Position numbers and translations under genes: made by a program. The notes below the pieces were generated by a model that did not search any database, was not told the origin of the DNA, and saw only the letters and a list, made by a program, of their open reading frames with translations. A stretch of DNA of 64,000 nt from Capitulum mitella (lineage: Eukaryota; Arthropoda; Thecostraca; Pollicipedomorpha; Pollicipedidae): NCBI GenBank assembly GCA_030062745.1, contig CP099849.1, forward strand, positions 19,824,144 to 19,888,143, given 5' to 3'. Every line of letters starts with the position of its first letter. The stretch's first letter is position 1. Positions 48,801 through 51,800 of this stretch are shown here, piece after piece.

Positions 48801-51800
48801 GGCTGGGATCAGATTGCGGATCAGATGGAGGCTGGAGGGCGCGATTCGTGACCCGACGCGGAGGCGCCGTTTCGGTCTGTGTGCTTCCGTGCCGCTCGCC
48901 CCGTCACGTGCGACTGACGCCTGCCTCCTCTCCGCAGAGCAAGCGGGACACGTTGATGGTGAACATCAAGTGGTTCTACCGGGTGTGTGAGCTGCCGGAG
49001 AACGTGTACCAGCTGCTGGTGCAGGACCGCACCACCGAGCACGACCAGCGCCTGGCCGTGCAGGACCCGGCCGTCAAGCACCGCGAGCTCTTCATCTCGG
49101 ACGCCACGGACACGTTCCCCGTCGCCGTGCTGCGGTGAGCGCCGCCGGCCGGGCCGCGGGCGGTGACCGCCGGCGGGGTCGTGAGCGGGCGGCTCGGGTG
49201 GCCGGCGGGCGGTTGCGGCCCGTGCTGAGGCCGCCGGGTGGTCGGGTCGCGGCGGAGTTGATCAGGTCGGGCGCGGGCGTCCGTGGCGTGACGGCGGGTT
49301 ACACGGCGGTCAGGCGATGTGGACCGGTTTCTGAGTGTTCGAGTGGCGCCTGTCACGACAGCGGACGAGGAGGACCGCTTCAGGTGTCGTCCTGCGAGGT
49401 GGAAACTGGATGCTGTCTGGGTAGGCCGCTAGTTGGACGCACGGACGTAATCGCGAGGAGATTCGAGAAACGTGCAGCGGCGTAGCCTCAGTTCCGCAGA
49501 GACGGCGTGCAGGGTGGATTTTTGGTTTCTCGTTTGTAAAGAGATATTAATACCACAACTGATGATGTCGCCATTCTGGATGTGGGGATCTTTGTGTAGA
49601 CCTGTCAGCAGGTTCAGGCTGCGGTATATCGAAATCCGTGCCGGCATTCGTAGTTCAGTTGTGTCACGAGAGCCAGGCTTAGCGATTGCGGACAATGTTT
49701 TTTGCGTGTTGGTCACCACCAAGAAACGTGCTACACTTGGTAAGCGGCAAGTGAACACGCAAAATGGAATGGAAAATTGTTAAACATGCTTGCCACCTGC
49801 AGATGCCATCGCGTACACGTGAAACATTTTTTTCACGTGTAACAAACGTGAAACACGTTGCATTTTACAGCCGAGGGACCGGGTCTTTGCCTGGGTCCAG
49901 TCTTGCCGCTTCTCCATTAAGACTAAAAACCCGGCTTACGGATTACGCGGCCGTACAGATAAGACGGAGGGAAAGGGATGCGGGCTGACCGTTATTCTTG
50001 CAGACGTCTTGTGGTTAGTGGAAGATGAGATTTTTAAGCTACCTGTGAGTTATTGTGCTGCGGAGTGTGGGAACTTCTTGCACCAGGCTATGAAATATCG
50101 CACTACTTGTAGTCGTAAGTGAGAGGGAGAGCTCGCGAGTTTACTCTTAAACATGAAACTGTGCGAGGCCATGGTTCTGTATTGTCTCTGGGCGGCCTCG
50201 GTGGAATTCGCGAGCTTTTAGACATGTTCCACCTACGCTAGCCGCCGTCTCTGGAACTCCGTAGAAGCGCCGTCCCCAGCCGGTTTCCGCCGTGGCGGCA
50301 GATCCGGCGCGCCGTCGCCGCGGTGGCGACAAATTTGGCGCGCGGCGGCGGCCGCGGTTTTCCGTCCCGCCGCCCCTCGGCCGGCCGCCGGGGAAGACGG
50401 CTCCGAGCCGGTCCGACCGGCGGCGGACGGCCGCGGCCCGGCGGGGTGCGGCGCGCGGACCGGGCCGGCGCCGCCCGGCTGCAGCGCCTGCACGCCGTGC
50501 ACGGGCCCGGCCCGGTAGCGGCGCCGGCCTGTGATCGCTCGAGCCTGATAAGAATGGCAGCGATGCGGTCCGGCGGCCGCGCGCGGCCCGATCAGCCCGT
50601 CACGACTGGCGATTTTTGCGAGGTGTTTGGCGGCCGGCCCAAACACTGAGTCGGAGGCTTTGTCACTGAGCGCCGTGTTACCGGTGTGAGCTGTACGTGA
50701 GAAGCCGTGGCTTTGTGTCGTTGATCATCGTATTCCCAGCCCGTGTGTCAACTGGTTTCTTTGCCCTTTGCTTTTTTTGCTGACATTTAAGTCAATCTTG
50801 ATCTGACAGGGAGGTTCCACGCAAAAGTGTCACAGCCCACGTATGCCCTCCCCGGCCGTCGTCTCTGTGTGTCTTGGCTCATCTGTCGCCCGTCTCTTGC
50901 GTACAGTACTGGGTGTCACTGATATCGGGGAGCCCCTGTCTCCCTGCACCAAGTGTCGGCCCCCTAACGATGCCCACCTCTGGCCGGCAGGGGGCCGTGC
51001 AAAGTGATCCACTACAGCGACGTGCACAAGGTGCGCGAGTACGCGCCCGCCACCGACACCTTCTTCTACGTGCTGACGTACAACCCCGAGACGCGCAGGC
51101 TGGCGTCTACACAGGGCGAGATCCGCGTGGGGCCGTCACACCAGGTCAGTACCGCTGCTGGAGGGTCAGATCCGCGTGGGGCCGTCACACCAGGTCAGTA
51201 CCGCCGCTGGAGGGTCAGATCCGCGAGGGGCCACCACCAGGTCAGTATCTCGGTGGAGGACTCCGTTGAGGTCTCTGCTGCCAGCTGCGTCCTCTGCACA
51301 GTAGGGCGAGGGGGCTGTGGACTTCTCCGGCTGGTGCTGGCGATAGCCGGCGGAGTCTTCAGAATGTTGCGACGCCGTTACTGGGCCTGTAACGGTGATT
51401 TGTTACGCTGGCCCGGCTGCAGCAGTATGGATAGGACCCGATCGCTCACGTTTTCATCATCCGTCCGCCGTGGCGGAATGGGGGCAGTCTGGGGCGCAGC
51501 GACAGCTTCCTCGAGATATTGGTCGATTTGTAGGCGCCGATGCGACTGGTGGTGATCCTTGCTTCACGATGCTGTCGTTGGCGTCGTCAACAACCTTATG
51601 ACTGCCACCAGCGGTTCGCAGTCTTGACCTTCGTTTTTGACATGCGTGGTTTTCACGGGCATTTGTCTCATCCACTACTGATCAGGTACTGCGTGTCATC
51701 AGAGTAGTGTCGAGGTTTTTAGGATTTGGATGGCCCGCGCTCGGATATCCCGGTCTCTGGCCGCTCCCGCGTCCTCGGGCGATGCTGCCCAAATATCAGG

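Follow-up and report, generated by a model that had tools for sequence, protein, structure and literature searches.

Genes and features of the window

The window, that is the whole stretch of 64,000 nucleotides analysed here (64 kb), contains a gene of which eight exons, from 48940 to 54819, join into a continuous protein of 404 residues. Pfam searches found BAH, ELM2, Myb/SANT and GATA domains in this order and all four above their cutoffs. The BAH match begins at profile position 38, because the preceding exon is not joined to the model. Solved structures matched by sequence were those of MTA1 and of the RERE SANT domain. Judged by the domain content of these exons, the gene is a RERE/atrophin-type corepressor. 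It has the BAH-ELM2-SANT-GATA order and the EIRVG motif in common with the ELM2-SANT corepressors MTA1 and RERE and would, compared to these, be an ordinary family member in which the splice arrays alone are unusual. These arrays lie at the two ends of intron 4 (Table 1). Exon 4 is flanked by introns of 1856 and 775 nt, and its GC content is 0.656 versus 0.606 and 0.610 in these introns.

Table 1. Features around intron 4 of the RERE-type gene (positions within the window)
Feature	Positions	Strand	Basis
Exon 4 (154 nt), with the last part of BAH and eight initial ELM2 residues; ends in donor 1	50991..51144	+	exon model, Pfam, paralog exon
Tandem array of exon-4 tail, donor and intron start with three donor copies (51144, 51193, 51240)	51119..51247	+	TRF, copy comparison
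Intron 4 (775 nt)	51145..51919	+	exon model
Segment of 96 nt, 32 open codons, included if donor 3 is used	51145..51240	+	frame reading
Second tandem array, across the intron-4 acceptor, with a period of about 70	51764..51955	+	TRF, frame reading
Exon 5 (234 nt): most of ELM2	51920..52153	+	exon model, Pfam

Three donors in a tandem array

The end of exon 4 carries CAG/GTCAGT three times (the slash marks the splice position), with spacings of 49 and 47 nt. On the + strand of the 64-kb window, CAGGTCAGT matched at 51142, 51191 and 51238 only, and the three + strand matches to CAGGTCAGTA lie at the same positions, all of them inside the array. TRF called a period of 49 and 2.7 copies; a self-BLAST of the window, bounded by its E-value limit, did not report this 49-nt array. 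An earlier note on this DNA had described three donors within a 49-bp repeat and intron starts at 51145, 51194 and 51241; array and donor-word positions agree with both statements. It had also put the difference between copies 1 and 2 at one base in 49, which holds in ten registers (starts 51119-51128), while 3/49 bases differ in the register starting at 51113. Copy 3 has diverged further, with 81% identity in an ungapped comparison of 27 nt. The 10-nt donor core is identical in all three donors, and the donor words of copies 2 and 3 are 47 nt apart, hence the total of 49+47=96. The repetition of the exon-4 donor is above chance: it has a local copy matching at 39/40 positions, and among 1000 random 40-mers of the window 30 reached at least 32/40 within 600 nt.

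The donor 3 segment would interrupt ELM2

Joined to 51920, donor 3 adds 96 nt, keeps the frame and contributes 32 open codons that are followed by AKLPDY; joined to the same position, donor 2 shifts the frame. Our frame reading thus reproduces what the earlier note had stated for both donors. The insert does end in HQ, as had been pointed out, but the repeated CACCAG, read in the restored frame, accounts for this. By chance, one offset in three would be a multiple of three. In addition, the frame of exon 4 stays open for 136 codons beyond donor 1, and at least 32 open codons follow 3 of the 8 donors of the gene (the exon-4 donor included), which led us to reject the 32 open codons as a sign of selection. 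Neither the in-frame offset nor the open reading much exceeds chance, and neither is strong evidence of selection.

The insert had been assigned to the boundary between BAH and ELM2. It falls instead inside ELM2, since the Pfam domain starts at residue 109 and the junction of exons 4 and 5 follows residue 116. As described in a review (PMC4244562), the ELM2 motif EIRVGxxYQAxI binds a groove on HDAC. The gene of the window matches this motif with H for Y and L for I, and the 32 residues added by donor 3 would come to lie between its Q and A. Insertion lowers the ELM2 score from 38.2 to 29.3 bits and moves the start of the match from profile position 1 to 7. From this arrangement, impaired HDAC contact of the donor 3 product appears more likely than a neutral linker. 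Because its product would have the HDAC-contact motif disrupted, this extra in-frame donor is expected to be little used.

The acceptor of intron 4 is repeated as well

The second array repeats the acceptor of intron 4 together with the start of exon 5; it had been overlooked in the first reading of the sequence. Two of its three acceptor copies have an intact AG, which the third lacks. The extra acceptor at 51849 is intact and frameshifting with each of the three donors. When the three donors are paired with the two acceptors, two of the six products are therefore in frame (donors 1 and 3 with 51919).

We simulated the uniform placement of 13 arrays of period >=30 (hand-clustered from 69 TRF rows) relative to the 14 junctions of one gene. 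The chance of one array on some junction was about 0.35, and two different arrays on both ends of one intron had a post hoc chance of about 0.007. A version that also counted one long array over a whole intron gave 0.043 for both ends, and 0.363 for one junction. In view of the two-ends probability of about 0.007, something local may matter. The region is repeat-rich, with other sizeable minisatellites of the window at 3900-4754, 29838-30087, 40123-40414 and 61533-61733.

A paralog without arrays

A genome search with a 301-nt array query, in which the best candidates were scored and very common words skipped, matched its own place and one paralog exon only. An origin of the array as a copy of a dispersed element is thus unsupported. 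The second match, on contig C6, belongs to a RERE-like paralog with open exons (C6:14970900-14975200; L003/L004). Exon lengths of paralog and window gene are equal in 7 of the 8 exons compared, the last measuring 179 versus 182 nt, and exon 4 has the same length with 147/154 identical positions. Intron 4 of the paralog is 339 nt long and contains a single GTCAGT donor and a single acceptor. Both arrays are therefore particular to the window copy. By sequence correspondence, donor 1 is the counterpart of the paralog donor.

Identity between the paralogs amounts to 92-96% in exons 3-5 and to 75-83% in exons 6-9. Fourfold sites agree at 86/105 positions in exons 3-5 versus 26/51 in exons 6-9 (Fisher p 0.0001). 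The greater closeness of exons 3-5 suggests gene conversion or constraint in this part of the gene.

Donor-word pairs are in excess throughout the genome

Genome-wide, we counted 976 pairs of CAGGTCAGT spaced 39-69 nt apart (465+511) versus 113 for the reversed pattern, at 11,269 versus 5,028 single sites; unlinked sites would yield about 4 pairs. For CAGGTGAGT, 134 pairs versus 13 for its reversed pattern were found (3,851 versus 2,374 singles). The counts cover these two words, with CAGGTAAGT outside them, and the pairs are not independent: by eye and among the matches listed, at least 59 pairs of contig C1 fall in at least 21 places.

The first 30 pairs among the matches listed, all on contig C1, were examined and represent 16 places. 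TRF places the word within an array (score >=50, period >=20) at 16 of the 30 loci, the rest being more degenerate. The nearness of the 16 places to donors is partly built in, because they were found by a donor-like word. Periods of the first pair are divisible by three at 7 of the 16 places, without a clear bias towards keeping the frame.

Fourteen of the 16 places were tested with Pfam, L015 and L043 being left out. From 13 places, 20 frames were scored, excluding short or alternative ones at other places. One of the 20 single frames passed its cutoff (cobW, L030), and the fn3 frame of L040 alone reached 18.1 versus a cutoff of 25. We further tested five joins of the exon before an array with a next exon chosen by eye. 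The join at L029 scored barely above the cutoff for C2 (22.4 versus 22), those at L040 and L044 gave 29.4 versus 25 for fn3 and 83.3 versus 27.8 for TMEM132, and the L034 and L036 joins had no Pfam match. Thus, at 4 of the 16 places (14 tested) the first donor closes a coding exon that scores above a Pfam cutoff, alone or joined to the next exon (cobW, C2, fn3 and TMEM132); for three of these four domains the result depends on a join picked by eye. The cobW, fn3 and TMEM132 genes each carry further copies of their own exon tail plus donor in the intron; in the C2 case the exon tail is repeated imperfectly. Since the exon tails differ between genes, a single inserted element is no explanation. 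Comparable donor arrays at several unrelated genes point to a mutation process.

The TMEM132-like gene of L044 (C1:34457411 onward) carries 16 CAG/GT copies of exon tail and donor at the start of its intron.

Choice among identical donors

Published minigenes with two identical donors, 365-nt flanking introns and exon definition used only the upstream donor (PMC9225289). By analogy, exon 4 has the intron-length architecture of those exon-defined minigenes: both systems offer several identical donors and flanking introns of more than 250 nt. They differ in that the published work concerns human minigenes and human events, whereas the window holds a natural three-donor array in an animal genome. 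Two points complicate the comparison. Taken over all human events, before control for donor strength, the same paper reports a downstream preference, and it links a differential GC architecture to exon definition (PMC9225289); the small GC difference between exon 4 and its introns is unlike that architecture. Intron definition would favour donor 3. RNA folding in windows of 100 to 300 nt revealed no consistent accessibility difference among the three donors, and donor accessibility by local folding was consequently rejected as a means to separate them.

Proposed origin and tolerance of the arrays

We propose that the arrays are donor-seeded minisatellites, tolerated because the exon-proximal donor 1 is used, and that the duplication process is not specific to this gene. 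We put the probability of this reading at roughly two in three. An older tandem duplication would have copied the exon tail, the donor and about 23 nt of the intron, with copy 3 as the diverged one, and a later expansion by one unit would have produced copies 1 and 2, which differ at 1/49 bases. The extra copies lie on the intron side and would leave the coding exon intact provided that donor 1 is used, as is predicted for identical donors in an exon-definition architecture. Duplication at donors would be tolerated since new copies end up within the intron and the exon remains served by its first donor, and the array may be neutral. At the acceptor of intron 4, the same kind of event would have taken place. 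Donor 3 would be used rarely, if at all, and its product would carry 32 residues splitting the HDAC1/2-contacting motif of ELM2.

The earlier note had suggested that tandem duplication created an isoform switch. Two extra donors with cores identical to the native one, one of them in frame, are indeed present. In the regulated form of this idea, donor 1 would give normal RERE, donor 3 a protein with 32 further residues in the ELM2 motif and weaker HDAC1/2 recruitment, and donor 2 or the upstream acceptor frameshifted transcripts. The identical 10-nt cores, the open in-frame donor 3 and the two of six in-frame combinations of donors and acceptors would fit, but neither the frame nor its openness departs much from chance, the insert disrupts a conserved motif, no such site exists in the paralog, and the arrays at other genes show no clear bias to periods of three (7/16). 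An isoform switch from the donor array is therefore possible but unproven and not favoured; we regard a regulated one as unlikely. A side effect of a mutation process that generates repeats seems a better description of the array than a purpose-built protein switch.

Alternatively, the intron-proximal donor 3 might be the main donor, so that the insert would be normal here while the other paralog gives the standard form. The presence of a second gene copy with open exons would allow for this, and PMC9225289 cites a classical bias towards whichever competing donor is intron-proximal, which speaks in its favour. The exon-defined minigenes of that same paper took the upstream donor, however, and the insert splits the ELM2 motif although the rest of the protein is conserved, which makes such a constitutive shift quite improbable.

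The near identity of copies 1 and 2 might also raise the suspicion that the reference contains too many or too few copies. Against such an assembly error stand the diverged and shorter copy 3, the contiguity of the assembly (477 Mb in 16 contigs) and the up to 16 CAG/GT copies at another gene, and we consider it very unlikely.

Finally, a nascent intron or recursive splicing could join donor 1 to the AG within a later copy, over 49 or 96 nt, and would regenerate the donor and give a standard mature mRNA. This would agree with the GT...AG segments that separate the copies (49, 96 and 47 nt), with AG/GT in each copy and with the AGGT duplication model described in PMC4974935, but is hardly credible given that the segments are very short and that the 15 nt before the internal AGs (GGGCCGTCACACCAG, AGGGGCCACCACCAG) are purine-rich with few or no T, so that by eye a polypyrimidine tract is lacking.

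Relation to known systems

A new intron arose in a potato RdRp gene when an intron-exon boundary was duplicated in tandem (Ma et al. 2016, PMC4974935). As in the window gene, exon and intron sequence at a junction was duplicated in tandem and splice signals were multiplied. The potato duplication, as reported there, crossed an acceptor and yielded a new intron with RNA support, whereas here the first array multiplies a donor and the second an acceptor. Each window copy also contains the AGGT of intron gain by AGGT duplication (Hellsten 2011, as cited in PMC4974935). Of the features associated with such gain, AGGT is thus present in the duplicated segment and a polypyrimidine tract before the new AG is absent. 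In contrast to that model, the window unit straddles an existing junction, and its outcome would be extra donors, not an intron. The C. elegans intronic minisatellite CeRep25B is described near alternative splicing (PMC4039745) and shares with our array the position of a minisatellite beside splice decisions. CeRep25B is one named repeat family, whereas here each array appears to be derived from the exon tail of its own gene. A full-text literature search, judged by titles and abstract openings and with most subscription papers outside its scope, returned no description that we recognised of recurrent arrays seeded at splice donors.

The donor-spanning arrays at several genes of this genome are a more interesting point than a switch in RERE. 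If they are common in one genome, they would permit direct in vivo tests of the choice among identical donors, and would be a ready source of new isoforms and introns as well as a trap for gene annotation. A bolder and, in our view, doubtful extension of the proposed donor seeding is that CAG/GTCAGT donors are hot spots of tandem duplication, with hundreds of arrays, many of them independently seeded by exon tails and reaching up to 16 donor-like copies at the 5' ends of introns, and that in some genes, RERE included, an in-frame copy serves as a used isoform donor. If this were true, the genome would amount to a large natural experiment on how the spliceosome chooses among many identical donors.

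With 11,269 versus 3,851 sites, CAGGTCAGT outnumbers CAGGTGAGT about threefold, and 3 of the 16 donors that were compared between the two RERE genes read GTCAGT. This species may thus have an unusually high share of donors with C at position +3.
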